In this document: in pieces, positions 1,831 through 62,918 of the stretch
Layout: each line of letters begins with the position of its first letter
How positions within the stretch are numbered: position 1 is the first letter of the stretch
Origin: Pandoraea thiooxydans
GTDB taxonomy: Bacteria > Pseudomonadota > Gammaproteobacteria > Burkholderiales > Burkholderiaceae
Direction: 5' to 3'
DNA length: 64,000 nucleotides
NCBI RefSeq assembly: GCF_001931675.1
Contig: NZ_CP014839.1
Location: 1 to 64,000 of the forward strand
Position numbers and translations under genes: made by a program
Notes under the pieces: generated by a model
Told to the model about the DNA's origin: nothing
What the model saw: the letters and a program-made list of their open reading frames with translations, nothing else
Databases searched by the model: none

Positions 1831-4702
<2,872 letters not shown>

Positions 4703-20700: not shown

Positions 20701-22206
20701 GTGTTCAACGAGATGTTCGGCGATCAACCACAACCGCGTGTCCTGGTGCTGGGCCTGGGTGAGTCAGGCTTGGCGATGGCACGCTGGTGCGCGCGCTATG
20801 GTTGCCGCGTGCGGGTTGCCGACACGCGCGACGCTGGCGCGCTCGGCAATTTGCCGATTCTCGAGACGGAAGTGCCGCGAAGTGAGTTCGTCGGCGGCGC
20901 ATTCGCCACCGCACTGCTCGACGATGTCCAGTTGATAGGAATCAGCCCGGGGTTGTCGCCCCGCGATCCGGCCGTGGCGGAATTGCTGGTCGCGGCAAAA
21001 GAGCGCCAAATTCCCGTTTGGGGCGAGATCGAATTCTTTGCCCAGGCGCTGCGCCACCTCGGCGCCGTCAGCGGCTATGCGCCAAAGTTGCTTGCCGTGA
21101 CCGGCACCAACGGCAAAACCACCACCACCAGCCTGACCGGCAAGCTCTGCGCACGTGCCGGCAAGCGGGTCGCCGTGGCGGGCAATATCAGTCCCTCGGT
21201 GCTCGACAAGCTCAGCGAGTGCATCGCCGAGGCGACGCTGCCGGAGATCTGGGTCATCGAATTGTCGAGTTTCCAGCTCGAAACCGTGCACACGCTCGCC
21301 CCGGACGCTGCGACAGTCCTCAACATCACGCAGGATCATCTCGACTGGCATGGCGACATGGCAGCCTATGCCGCAGCCAAGGCACGAATTTTTGGCGCGC
21401 AGACCGTGCGCGTGCTCAATCGTGACGACACGCTGGTGGCCGCGATGGCCGTGCCCGACGCGACCGTCGTGACGTTCGGCGTCGGGTTGCCTGCGGTCGA
21501 TGGCGACTTCGGCCTACAAATCGTCAACGGCATTTGCTGGCTGGTGCAGGCGGAGAACGCCGATGATGCACCCCCGGCGCGACGCCGCAAAGCCGAGCCG
21601 GCGCCGCCGGTCGAGCTGTCAATGAAGCGGTTGATGCCGGCCGATGCGCTGCACATTCGGGGCACCCACAACGCCACCAACGCGCTGGCCGCGCTTGCCC
21701 TGGCCCGCGCCATCGGTTTGCCAATGGCGCAGTTGCTGCACGGCCTGCGCGAGTACCAAGGCGAGCCCCATCGGGTAGAGCTGATCGCCACGCTCAACGA
21801 CGTCGCTTATTTCGACGATAGCAAGGGCACCAACGTCGGGGCCACGGTTGCGGCCATCCGTGGCCTGGATCAGCGAGTCGTTCTGATTGCCGGCGGCGAT
21901 GGCAAGGGGCAGGATTTCTCCCCGTTGGCCGCACCGGTGGCGCAAAGCGCGCGAGCCGTATTCCTGATCGGCCGTGACGCACCGGCGATCCGCGCGGCAC
22001 TGGCCGATGCCGGCGTGCCCCTGCATGATTGCGCCACGCTCGAGGACGCAGTGCAAGCCGCCGCCAAAGTGGCGCAACCGGGCGACGCGGTGCTGTTGTC
22101 GCCGGCCTGCGCCAGTCTCGACATGTTCCGTAATTACGCACATCGGGCCGAGGTGTTTCACGACGCGGTGAGCGCGCTCGCTGCCCAGGCGGGGGTGATG
22201 CTATGA
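20701..22206 (+). CDS. murD: UDP-N-acetylmuramoylalanine-D-glutamate ligase MurD
   Basis: Adds D-glutamate to UDP-MurNAc-L-Ala. The 501-aa Mur ligase begins with a nucleotide-binding-like domain ([16 protein letters not shown]), carries the P-loop [13 protein letters not shown] (from about 133), [21 protein letters not shown] and the C-terminal [16 protein letters not shown] moderately long insertion around 275-310 includes [15 protein letters not shown]. The start is GTG at 20701, supported by GAGGAAG 6 nt upstream. The stop overlaps ftsW by 4 bp. Confidence 0.96.
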
Positions 22207-23459
22207 GCTGGTTCAAGGCGTTATCGAGCAAGAAACGGCAGGCCGGGTATGCCAGCGCCACGATCGGCAAAGCTCGCACCGGCACCGCCAGTGCGCTGGG
22301 CGGCATCAAGCTGACCCGCTCCAGGATGATGGAATACGATCAGCCGCTGCTGTGCGTTGTGATCGCGCTGTTGTCGCTTGGGCTCGTGATGGTCTACTCG
22401 GCGTCGATCGGCCTGTCCGATTCGCCGCAGGTCAGCTATTACAACACCTCTCATTTTCTGGTGCGCCACATCATTGCGTTGGTGGTGGCTTCGATCGCCT
22501 CCATCATTACGTTCAAGATACCCATCAAGGTACTGGACAAGCTGGCGCCAAAGATCCTGCTGCTGGCACTGTTCCTGTTGGTGATCGTGCTGATACCGCA
22601 TATCGGCAAAGGGGTGAACGGCTCACGGCGCTGGATTCCGATCGGTGTGCTCAACCTGCAACCGTCTGAATTCATGAAGCTTGCCGTGACGCTCTATGCG
22701 GCCAATTACACCGTGCGCAAGCAGGACTTCATGCAGAGCTTTCGCAAAGGCTTTTTGCCGATGGGTGTTGCCGTGGCGTTCGTCGGCATGCTGCTGTTGC
22801 TCGAGCCTGACATGGGCGCGTTCATGGTGATTGCGGCAATTGCGATGGGCGTATTGTTTCTCGGCGGCGTCAACGGAAAGTTGTTTGCAGGCTTGACGCT
22901 AACGGCGGTAGCCACGTTTAGTGTGCTCGTCTGGGCCTCCCCCTGGCGGCGGGCGCGGATTTTTGCCTATCTCGATCCCTGGAGCGCGGATCACGCGCTG
23001 GGCAAGGCCTATCAATTGACCCATTCGCTGATTGCCTTCGGCCGTGGCGAATGGTTCGGTGTCGGACTCGGCGCCAGCGTCGAGAAATTGCACTATCTGC
23101 CGGAGGCGCATACCGACTTCATTCTCGCGGTAATCGGCGAAGAACTCGGTTTCGTCGGTGTTCTCACCGTGATCATCCTGTTCTACTGGCTGGTGCGCCG
23201 CACTTTCGACATCGGCCGCCAGGCGCTCGCGCTGGAGAGAACCTTCGCCGGCCTGCTGGCCAAAGGCATCGGCGTATGGTTCGCCGCGCAAACGTTCATC
23301 AACATGGGAGTGAATCTGGGTCTGCTGCCGACCAAGGGCCTGACGTTACCGTTCGTCAGCTATGGCGGCTCCGGGATTCTGCTCAACTGCATCGCCTTCG
23401 CCATGCTGATGCGTGTCGATTACGAAAATCGTGTGCTGATGCGCGGAGGGAAGGTATGA
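22203..23459 (+). CDS. ftsW: Peptidoglycan glycosyltransferase FtsW
   Basis: The SEDS-family septal glycan polymerase that works with FtsI. At 418 aa it has a basic cytoplasmic N-terminus of about 40 residues and roughly ten membrane segments. Family signatures include [30 protein letters not shown] and the C-terminal [18 protein letters not shown]. It ends [12 protein letters not shown]. Its TGA (23457-23459) overlaps the ATG of the 114-bp-repeat ORF, and its last seven codons form one arm of an inverted repeat (see findings). Confidence 0.97.
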
Positions 23460-23485
23460 CCGTAGCGCATCAGCACACGATTTCG
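23423..23485 (+). repeat. Inverted repeat spanning the ftsW stop and the repeat-ORF start
   Basis: The last codons of ftsW (23423-23443) are the reverse complement of 23466-23485, 20 pairs with one bulged base (four T against three). The 22-nt loop holds GGAGGG, the overlapping ATGA of the ftsW stop and next start, and a few codons. In RNA this is a strong hairpin with the ribosome-binding site in its loop. Confidence 0.85.
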
Positions 23486-23911
23486 GCGCAGGCTAACCTG
23501 GCGCGCGCAGCGTGGCAGGTTAAGCGCAGCGGCCGTAGCCAAAATCCCCAATTGATGCGCGGGGAAGATATGACCGCAGCGCATCAGCACACGATTTCGG
23601 CGCAGGCTAACCTGGCGCGCGCAGCGTGGCAGGTTAAGCGCAGCGGCCGTAGCCGAAATCCGCAATTGATGCGCGGGGAAGATATGACCGCAGCGCATCA
23701 GCACACGATTTCGGCGCAGGCTAACCTGACGCGCGCAGCGTGGCAGGTTAAGCGCAGCGGCCGTAGCCAAAATCCGCAATTGATGCGCGGGGAAGATATG
23801 ACCGCAGCGCATCAGCACACGATTTCGGCGCAAGCTAACCTGACGCGCGCAGCGTGGCAGGTTAAGCGCAGCGGCCGTAGCCAAAATCCGCAATTGATGC
23901 GCGGGGAAGGT
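23456..23911 (+). repeat. Four tandem copies of a 114-bp unit between ftsW and murG
   Basis: The unit begins ATGACCG(T/C)AGCGCATCAG and recurs with starts at 23456, 23570, 23684 and 23798, exactly 114 bp apart. A fifth, partial copy starts at 23912 and decays after about 15 bp. Copies differ by only a few substitutions, so the array is recent or kept uniform by recombination. Each unit ends with a short echo of the ftsW 3' end (ATGCGCGGGGAA before the ATG, where ftsW has ATGCGCGGAGGGAAGGT). The length is a multiple of 3, so the frame stays open. Confidence 0.97.
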
Positions 23912-23959
23912 ATGACCGTAGCGCATCGGCACTCGGTGTCGTTGGGAGGGCAGCCATGA
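23456..23959 (+). CDS. Hypothetical 38-residue-repeat protein in the dcw cluster
   Basis: A 167-codon ORF built of four 38-residue repeats, each starting MT(V/A)AHQHTISAQ and ending QLMRGED, plus a 15-residue tail ending SLGGQP. No signal peptide, membrane segment or known domain is visible; the repeats are rich in Arg, Gln and Ala and basic. The start overlaps the ftsW stop and the stop overlaps the murG start, both as ATGA, with GGAGGG ahead of the first ATG. Each repeat also has GGGGAAGAT directly before its Met, so internal initiation is possible. Either this is a real small protein, or the open frame matters mainly because it keeps ribosomes moving from ftsW to murG. The minus strand is also open (23420-23932), which is typical of GC-rich repeats. 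Confidence 0.55.
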
Positions 23960-25065
23960 GCGTGCACCGCACCGCTGTCCCGTCGACCTTGCCTGTCGGA
24001 CCCGAGCGCACGCTGCTGATACTGGCTGGCGGCACGGGCGGGCATGTCTTCCCGGGGCTGGCGGTGGCGAATTTCCTGCGTGTGCAAGGCTGGAAGATCG
24101 TATGGCTGGGCAATCCGGCCGGCATGGAAGCCACTCTGGTGCCGAAATACGACATCCCGATGGAATTTGTGCGATTTGGCGGCGTGCGCGGCAAAGGTCT
24201 GCTGACGAAACTCTGGTTGCCGTTCAATTTGTTGCGGGCGTTCTGGCAAAGCCTGCGCGCGATCCGGCGGGTGCGGCCGAGCGTGGTGCTCGGCATGGGC
24301 GGGTATATCGCTTTTCCGGCGGGAATGATGGCGTCGCTGCTTGGCTATCCGTTGGTGCTTCACGAACAGAACTCGGTGGCCGGCATGGTCAATCGGATTC
24401 TGGCGAAGATCGCCGATTCGGTGCTTGTTGCCTTTCCAAACGCTTTGCCTCGTGCCGAGTGGGTGGGCAACCCGATTCGGGCCGATTTCGCCCGACTGCC
24501 GCCTCCGGAAGAACGCTATGGTGCACGCAGCGGGCCTCTGCGCCTGCTGGTGGTGGGCGGCAGTCTCGGCGCCGCGGCGCTCAACGAGATTGTCCCCAAG
24601 GCGCTGGCGATGCTGCCGCGCGACGCGCGCCCGCACGTGACGCATCAGGCGGGCGTCAAGCACATCGCCACATTGCAGGCGAACTACGCTGCCGCGGCAG
24701 TGTCGGTCGACGCGGTGCCGTTTATCGACGACATGGTGCAAGCCTATGCGGACGCAGATCTGGTGATCTGCCGGGCCGGCGCGATGACGGTGGCCGAAGT
24801 GGCCGCCACCGGCGTCGCCGCGCTGTTTGTGCCATTTCCGCAAGCCGTCGACGATCACCAAACGACCAATGGGGAATTTCTGGCCGGGCAGGGTGCTGCA
24901 GTGCTGATACAGCAGCGCGATTTGACGGCCCGGAAGTTGGCGGACTGGCTGGCCGGGCAAACGCGCGAGGGGTTGATGGCGATGGCGCAAAAGGCTCGCT
25001 CGCTGGCCAAACCCGACGCGGCCGAACAGGTCGCGCGCGTCTGCGTCGCGGTGGCGAGGGACTGA
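23956..25065 (+). CDS. murG: UDP-GlcNAc:undecaprenyl-PP-MurNAc-pentapeptide GlcNAc transferase MurG
   Basis: The peripheral membrane GT28 glycosyltransferase that converts lipid I to lipid II. The 369-aa protein has the N-terminal G-loop [12 protein letters not shown] (about 23-34), a second G-rich loop [24 protein letters not shown] and the C-terminal donor-site [21 protein letters not shown]. The first 18 residues (to PVGPER) are an extension beyond the conserved start. The ATG overlaps the stop of the repeat ORF and is preceded by GGGAGGGCAGCC, a good ribosome-binding site. Confidence 0.96.
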
Positions 25066-61826: not shown

Positions 61827-62375
61827 TGTCTGGCGATGCATGCTGTGTTCAGCAGTGTGCATCAAATACAACACATTGGATTCGTGATGCGGTGTCGTGC
61901 GCGTTTTTCGTGTCGAAAGTATTAACATCGCATCACAAAAGAATTATTATTCGCTCAATTAAATGCAGTCTCGATAACCAGAAAGCAAATCGCTTTCCTC
62001 TCAATGCAGAGAACTGGTAGATAAGGAGCGTCAAAACCTTGGTGCATAGCAGGCAGTCGTCACGCTTATCCGCTATCGCAGTCTCCCTCCTCCCGATGAC
62101 GGGACAGGCAAGCTACCCTCCCAAAAAACTGACGCTTCACCAACATCACTACAACCGAATTGCTGGCGGCGAAGTCGCCGGCAATTTTTTTGCGCGCTGG
62201 CCGGCGACGTCACGCCTGCCCGCGCGCAATGCCGAATTCATTAGCGTAAGCAGCCATAGCTTGATGCGTACGCCGATGAATAGCCCGCTCGCTGCGCGCC
62301 TGTTGGCGCACTGGTCGGGTTTCCTTCTCAGGTGGTTTGTTTGATTCTATCGATTCTCAAGTCAAGGAGAGCATG
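61827..62375 (+). other. 549-bp gap between nrdB and the H1-like gene
   Basis: No convincing protein gene. The first 230 bp are AT-richer than the flanks. A folded element at 61837-61865 (GATGCA with TGCATC, inner TGCTG with CAGCA) follows nrdB. A strong intrinsic terminator (listed next) lies 330 nt after nrdB. An ORF at 62039-62344 runs through that terminator and is rejected. The last 180 bp should carry the promoter of the H1-like gene. Confidence 0.5.
62158..62191 (+). terminator. Rho-independent terminator, possibly of a small RNA
   Basis: AATTGCTGGCG pairs with CGCCGGCAATT (one G-T pair) around a 7-nt loop, then a run of T to 62191. It is 332 nt beyond the nrdB stop, so it ends either a long nrdB trailer or a separate transcript. 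Confidence 0.88.
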
Positions 62376-62918
62376 ATGGCTACTGCTAAGAAAAAACCTG
62401 TTGCTGCGAAAAAACCTGCTGCCAAAAAACCGGTAGCGAAGAAGGCTCCGGCCGCCAAGAAGCCCGCCGCCAAGAAAGCGGTTGCTGCCAAAAAAGCACC
62501 GGCCAAGAAAGCCGCAGTGAAGAAAGTGGCTGCCAAGAAGGCACCGGCCAAGAAAGCGGTCGTGAAGAAAGTGGCTGCCAAGAAGGCACCGGCCAAGAAA
62601 GCGGTCGTGAAGAAAGTCGCCGCCAAGAAGGCACCGGCCAAGAAAGCGGCAGTGAAGAAAGTCGCCGCCAAGAAGGCACCGGCCAAGAAAGCCGCAGTGA
62701 AGAAAGTCGCCGCGAAAAAAGCGCCGGCGAAAAAAGCTGCTGCCAAGAAGCCCGCTGCGAAGAAACCGGCCGCCAAGAAGCCCGCTGCCAAGAAACCCGC
62801 TGCGAAGAAGCCGGCCGCTAAGCCTGCTGCGACCGCCGCTGCCCCTGCAGCTGCGCCCGCCAAGACGGTGCTCAATCCGGCGGCGGCGTGGCCGTTCCCG
62901 ACTGGCAGCCGTCCGTAA
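62376..62918 (+). CDS. Histone H1-like, lysine/alanine/proline-rich DNA-binding protein
   Basis: A 180-aa, strongly basic, low-complexity protein: [19 protein letters not shown], then repeats of the type [15 protein letters not shown], then a PAAKK-rich stretch, an Ala-rich linker and the conserved tail [15 protein letters not shown]. It resembles eukaryotic H1 tails and the AlgP/HctB-type nucleoid proteins; binding to DNA is expected from charge. The middle is a tandem array with a 45-bp period (about 62480-62720). ATG 62376 is preferred over 62373 because AAGGAGAG gives better spacing. Confidence 0.9.
62480..62725 (+). repeat. 45-bp tandem repeats inside the H1-like gene
   Basis: About five copies of a 45-bp unit encoding KKAPAKKA(V/A)VKKVAA follow one another, with several copies nearly identical at DNA level (for example from 62528 and 62573). 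Such arrays change copy number by slippage, so length should vary among strains. Confidence 0.8.

Follow-up and report, generated by a model that had tools for sequence, protein, structure and literature searches.

Short, hairpin-forming repeats with dispersed, intergenic copies are represented in bacteria by REP/BIME, ERIC, Correia/NEMIS, BOX and RUP, while the palindromic elements of Rickettsia are palindromes which keep coding frames open and are inserted inside proteins. A survey of stem-loop families lists Bordetella and Neisseria, and Burkholderia, Ralstonia and Nitrosomonas are absent from the portion of it that was available (PMC2267715). Concerning translational coupling, the accessible part of PMC12548453 describes the opening of structures over downstream start regions by the upstream ribosome as well as re-initiation. 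The dcw operon of B. cenocepacia is covered by PMC7761207, the available main text of which does not mention murG.

The element analyzed here, which lies between ftsW and murG, resembles REP/BIME, ERIC, Correia/NEMIS, BOX and RUP in being short, hairpin-forming and seemingly non-autonomous and in having dispersed, intergenic copies. It differs from them in that it often stands in sense orientation at the 3′ end of a gene, carries an arm complementary to that gene end as well as a direct copy of it, forms tandem arrays and is restricted to one order in the samples searched. Open frames are shared with the Rickettsia palindromic elements, a likeness drawn by description only; unlike in these, the element adds a new coupled ORF that stands between two genes. 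In common with the translational coupling hairpins treated in the available part of PMC12548453 are the structure over the downstream start, openable by an upstream ribosome, and the 4-nt overlaps, whereas here the hairpin is part of a dispersed element that brings an additional frame and varies in unit number, and the coupling is a predicted one.

The window, i.e. the whole stretch of DNA that was analyzed, comprises 64,000 nucleotides of Pandoraea thiooxydans (contig NZ_CP014839.1, positions 1 to 64,000). Between ftsW and murG, both products of which match their Pfam families, TRF reported a tandem array with a period of 114, 4.3 copies and 96% matches at 23437-23932. The array consists of four head-to-tail 114-bp units (23443-23898) followed by a 43-nt remnant (23899-23941), and the features of the junction are the following:

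22203..23459, + strand: ftsW, 418 aa, the last codons of which are the 5′ side of the first hairpin (PF01098, 346 bits; sequence)
23429..23449, + strand: 5′ side of the stem between ftsW end and arm, 19 of 21 positions pairing, G-U included
23443..23556, + strand: unit 1, its first 17 nt still ftsW end (self-comparison)
23450..23459, + strand: 10-nt loop GAAGGTATGA holding the stop of ftsW and the start codon that follows (fold)
23456..23959, + strand: 167-codon array frame with an ATGA overlap at both ends (sequence)
23460..23480, + strand: arm complementary to the ftsW end (pairing)
23478..23545, + strand: core hairpin, copy 1 (model R1, 88.2 bits)
23557..23670, + strand: unit 2 (self-comparison)
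23592..23659, + strand: core hairpin, copy 2 (model R1, 84.1 bits)
23671..23784, + strand: unit 3 (self-comparison)
23706..23773, + strand: core hairpin, copy 3 (model R1, 87 bits)
23785..23898, + strand: unit 4 (self-comparison)
23820..23887, + strand: core hairpin, copy 4 (model R1, 83.2 bits)
23899..23941, + strand: partial fifth unit, the remnant before murG (86% to unit 1 over 43 nt)
23956..25065, + strand: murG, 369 aa (PF04101 and PF03033 above cut-off)

The identity of unit 1 is 94.7% with unit 2, 94.7% with unit 3 and 93.9% with unit 4, three of its differences being located within its first 17 nt, and units 2-4 are mutually 97.4-99.1% identical. Self-identity at a lag of 114 amounted to 0.96, while in 200 shuffles no lag from 30 to 249 exceeded 0.38. 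The ATGA at the start of the 167-codon frame overlaps the ftsW stop and the one at its end the murG start. An earlier note on this DNA had described four 114-bp copies forming this frame and ATGA coupling on both the ftsW and the murG side; TRF and the lag self-identity bear out the former, and the overlaps are present as claimed. The palindromic nature of the unit and a 19-nt inverted copy of the ftsW end are features beyond that description. A Pfam search with the 167-codon frame yielded six whole-sequence matches and no single stretch that passes, and these matches are therefore sums over the repeats. Elsewhere in the window, a 193-codon frame at 62337-62918 (+) is rich in Lys, Ala and Pro and contains 15- and 45-bp repeats, which we take to be of the kind found in histone H1-like proteins.

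The sequence AAATCGTGTGCTGATGCGC in the ftsW end has a perfect 19-nt inverted copy 20 nt downstream, which is the first arm of the unit. Each unit leads from this arm, complementary to the ftsW end, through the core hairpin (GGCTAAC ... GTTAAGC, then GCAGCGGCCGTAGCC) to a direct repeat of the ftsW end that carries an ATG of its own; this second direct copy, with which each unit closes, has by now diverged (17/36 positions in unit 1). The first 150 nt have a fold z of -6.6, the loop enclosing both the stop of ftsW and the start that follows it, and the whole junction of the window reaches -7.1. Five junctions with the element ranged from -6.0 to -8.0 and three bare junctions from -1.0 to 0.6. 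In units 2-4 of the window the arm and the preceding ftsW-end copy pair at just 5 of 21 positions, so that a strong hairpin is found at the first unit only. Since the window lineage has repeats of the ftsW end that are shorter by 2 nt, the frame runs past the internal ATGs from unit to unit, and one open frame therefore results at any unit number in this lineage.

For comparison of the same junction in relatives, the best 80 of 569 confirmed FtsW loci were used. Among these 80, the element was present between ftsW and murG in one copy at 11 loci, including L020 and L035 with a partly or mostly deleted core, while L029 has a divergent form, L073 a short insert and the remaining 66 no insert. 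At ftsW-murG of L070 (about 4237-4364), an unrelated palindrome of the CCCCGCGCAGGCGGGG type is followed by an ftsW-end copy, coupled by 4-nt overlaps. The bare murG starts of L006 (near 4270-4290), L009 and L057 have first codons that resemble the element arm, with 20 nt identical between the L020 arm and the L006 murG start; such arm-like starts are possible excision scars. In the family sample R1 matched 36 of 299 genomes at E ≤ 0.001, and the 25 genomes with at least 78 bits all have the element at ftsW-murG. The earlier suggestion of a tandem amplification of the module was strengthened by G024 and G029, the closest relatives among those found, which have one unit plus remnant; a similar remnant also trails the single units of L085 and L086. 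Two units are present in G170 and G225, and two were deduced from the core positions in G129, where the adjacent stretch reads N. Moreover, two or three units occur at the junction in three other families, namely in L088 (f6), in L157 and L170 (f26) and in L154 (f43). Across four families the element recurs at the ftsW-murG junction, with between 1 and 4 units.

All 43 of 43 insert-bearing junctions, including the deleted-core forms and L070, are linked to murG by 4-nt overlaps, 38 of them chained by script and 5 by reading, with about eight organisms counted twice. The five settled by reading are L033, L058, L127 and L151, where the frame that ends the chain is murG as judged by its length, and L088, where the overlap is TTGA. 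A single run-through frame of 88, 93, 97, 109 or 167 codons is found in the window lineage and in the arrays of other families, while the two units of G170 and of G225 form coupled ORFs that stay separate. The earlier note had proposed that copy number could tune how many ribosomes reach murG; as the four units form one reading frame here, extra units would lengthen one ORF and add no re-initiation steps. The operon had been called normally gap-free, which at this junction does not agree with inserts of some kind in 43 of 109 junction rows, these rows being partly gathered via the element search. A 100-row tree, in which 39 rows have the element and 61 lack it, was built by a quick method with a long-branch warning, with some organisms twice and no shuffle control; along it, presence of the element changes at least 17 times. 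These changes and the absence of the element from most junctions mean that it is dispensable. Of the 39 rows with the element, 35 have the loop GGGAAGGTATGA at the ftsW end, as do 17 of the 61 without it; the rows are related, and the association could reflect either a preferred target or a constraint.

The 68-nt core of the unit is a member of a dispersed, structured palindrome family. In the order sample R1 matched 86 of 399 genomes (E ≤ 1e-4), one of which is the window genome, and in the class sample 2 of 274 at E ≤ 1e-5, namely the window genome and one of the same order; since A1 includes nine ftsW-murG cores, R1 is biased toward the ftsW-murG type. Two genomes contain 44 and 36 copies at E ≤ 0.01, and the window genome has no R1 match at E ≤ 1 beyond the four array copies. 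Single units in relatives and dispersed cores elsewhere rule out a private repeat gene. Literature searches aimed at the element, including a text search for four 16-nt core strings, returned no description, in agreement with the earlier note; as to a new gene, the unit is more than that, being a copy of a dispersed palindrome with a conservation that looks nucleic-acid-like. No match at E ≤ 1 was obtained with Rfam 15 in 23300-24100, and on eight dispersed loci it gave five matches, none of which covers the core. The plasmid collection contained only partial ftsW/murG matches in 23 records.

At 33 dispersed loci, hand-picked with exclusion of ftsW loci, repeat copies of one site, nested copies and the weakest hits, a sense frame of at least 250 codons ends at the 5′ side of the core in 22 cases and an antisense frame in 4 (Fisher p 1e-5), as compared to 186 of 3300 random positions. 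When the upstream frames were compared to NCBIfam, 15 of 20 were above the curated cut-off, two (transketolase, LivH) were below it and three had no match. The genes above the cut-off encode ornithine carbamoyltransferase, acetate-CoA ligase (twice), alanine transaminase (three times), GAPDH, pyruvate kinase, ribonucleotide reductase alpha, FolE2, serine-tRNA ligase, argininosuccinate synthase, GlmS, SmpB and QueE. At 24 of 58 loci the left flank recurs in direct orientation behind the core with a score above the 95th percentile of the control, which is not so at the other 34, and an inverted arm exceeded this percentile at 20 of 58; the remaining loci showed neither feature in this test. The 58 were the loci scored out of 76 (18 were missed by the regular expression), and among them are two ftsW loci, repeated entries from a single site or array, and copies that lie inside another repeat. 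At many sites the copied segment starts with GAAAAY, as seen by eye and without a control. In G340 and G445 (L164, L190, L192, L194 and similar) many copies are nested in a longer dispersed repeat with the flank GAGGGAGCGAAAACG...GCCAACACCGCGCAACGC, and their minimal inverted target is AAAACG-nn-GTTTC. Another gene-end tandem array was seen in L197 (922-1565, G056), where five cores spaced 144-145 bp stand behind a frame, the C-terminus of which resembles the C-terminus of the FolE2 frame of L179.

Further readings of the element were rejected. An arm that copies the murG start does not agree with the 20 nt after the ftsW stop, which differ from the murG start of the nearest bare relative at 7-15 of 20 positions in 32 comparisons. 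Replacement of the native ftsW end by one carried on the element finds no support, the second copy being nearer to the bare relative in 8 of 32 junctions, the first in 12 and a tie in 12. This 32-junction comparison omits the window, L005 and L113, which have no second copy under the rule applied, and rows less than 85% identical to a bare relative; the second ftsW-end copy was undetected for L109, L111, L119, L125 and L152. A REP element with RAYT transposase was dismissed, as Y1_Tnp was found in only 2 of 5 element-bearing genomes.

Pairing between the ftsW end and the arm was analyzed in 21 distinct junctions by comparison to shuffles which ignore kinship. Paired cells amounted to 91.4% vs 82.4% in the shuffles, both-side changes to 48 vs 13.2 and covariation to 0.382 vs 0.194, and 0 of 500 shuffles reached any of these three values; the 6 pairs that changed on both sides and the 22 further pair types were not unusual, such counts being reached in 150 and 176 of 500 shuffles, respectively. 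In slid registers pairing was at most 46.5%. A close-relative pair is given by TCGTGTG with the arm ACACGA in the window and TCGAGTG with ACTCGA in L005. Structure over the downstream start and compensatory change, which characterize coupling hairpins, are thus both found at ftsW-murG. The stem cells outside Watson-Crick pairing comprise 37 G-U, 0 C-A and 38 purine-purine, the purine-purine mismatches occurring at 4 of 21 stem columns in 5 to 11 of 21 sequences. In the core, G-U to C-A was 26 to 1 at ftsW-murG and 23 to 4 in a mainly dispersed set. The core hairpin was paired at 97.8% vs 83.5% in shuffles, with a covariation of 0.317 vs 0.102 (0 of 500; 46 distinct rows), in an alignment that was fitted to the structure. 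The G-U excess over C-A together with the covariation points to a hairpin that is conserved at the level of the sense mRNA.

A dispersed, structured palindrome in four tandem copies makes up the array, and its anatomy, recurrence, overlaps and covariation were observed directly. We favor, at a probability of roughly 0.55, a hairpin-closed translational coupler which gains and loses units via its direct repeats. Against this coupler weigh the absence of the element from most junctions and its many changes of presence on the tree, the four stem columns with purine-purine mismatches, and the poor pairing of the arms in units 2-4 of the window. It is possible, if doubtful, that the palindrome is instead neutral or selfish, inserting together with copies of its target in both inverted and direct orientation, persisting at ftsW-murG only where the frame is kept and having its arms matched by template switching. 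Replication template switching in imperfect palindromes is a process that keeps arms matched, and near-perfect arms at several dispersed sites (by eye), tandem copies at other gene ends (e.g. L155, L162, L167, L173 and L197) and the patchy presence all agree with such an element. The 37 G-U vs 0 C-A cells argue against it, as the arm-side opportunity for G-U and C-A is 261 to 105, giving p 0.012 for 13 column-states and, at the same ratio, p 1.5e-4 for 26 parsimony toggles of G-U, counted into and out of G-U. That the frames of 38 to 42 codons, here fused to 167, encode a useful micro-protein is improbable. They are open and coupled in every insert-bearing junction read, and in the right half of the core entropy is highest at codon position 3 (0.53 vs 0.10 and 0.03), as expected under this reading; in the left half it is highest at codon position 1 (0.48, then 0.20 and 0.07), the same core lies in other frames or outside frames at other sites, and no Pfam stretch passes. 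The variation by codon position carries no consistent protein signal.

An artefact of assembly in the copy number is very improbable: near-identical tandem repeats are easily mis-counted, but the window genome is one contig of 4,464,185 bases, the units differ among themselves, and arrays of two and three units are found at this junction in other genomes. Equally improbable is a core that is an integron attC-like site with the units as minimal cassettes. The boxes of attC are GTTRRRY and RYYYAAC, of which the first is fitted by GTTAAGC of the core and the second is not fitted by GGCTAAC. Sense placement at gene 3′ ends resembles cassettes, and an integron integrase was found in 56 of 86 element-bearing genomes vs 87 of 313 others, in hand-typed lists with the families pooled. 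However, beside nine integrases (ten stretches) R1 found one strong core, of the nested kind, and one weak match, so that the core is not the array repeat at these nine loci, and the window genome has no integrase above the cut-off. A crude attC pattern had no match in four integrase regions and hence provided no positive control.

For the translational coupler, hairpin opening by the ftsW ribosome, re-initiation, an effect on MurG and the mode of insertion are what we infer from these observations. The mRNA hairpin over the ftsW stop and the next start would hinder fresh initiation at the inserted frame, and a ribosome ending ftsW would open the hairpin and re-initiate at the overlapping ATGA. 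It would then traverse the inserted frame and re-initiate again on murG, and by this hand-over murG would still depend on ftsW translation despite about 500 bp added. Recombination or replication slippage between the direct ftsW-end copies that flank each core could add or remove whole units, which would give 1, 2, 3 or 4 units by species as well as clean losses. More tentatively, the element may belong to a new, mobile class of RNA-structured palindromes which target gene 3′ ends (the target often being GAAAAY...) and gain a complementary arm and a second copy of the last codons, hence a ready-made coupler or 3′-end hairpin, and which would have been kept, amplified and adjusted at ftsW-murG in several betaproteobacterial families.

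The architecture would point to a mode of insertion that copies the target in both orientations, for which the literature searches returned no description. If the coupler reading is true, a dispersed repeat is tolerated in a very tight essential operon without cutting translation, because the repeat supplies a duplicate of the gene's end as well as a hairpin built from it. The natural series of 0, 1, 2, 3 and 4 units would then offer a handle on the FtsW:MurG ratio via termination-re-initiation and mRNA hairpins.
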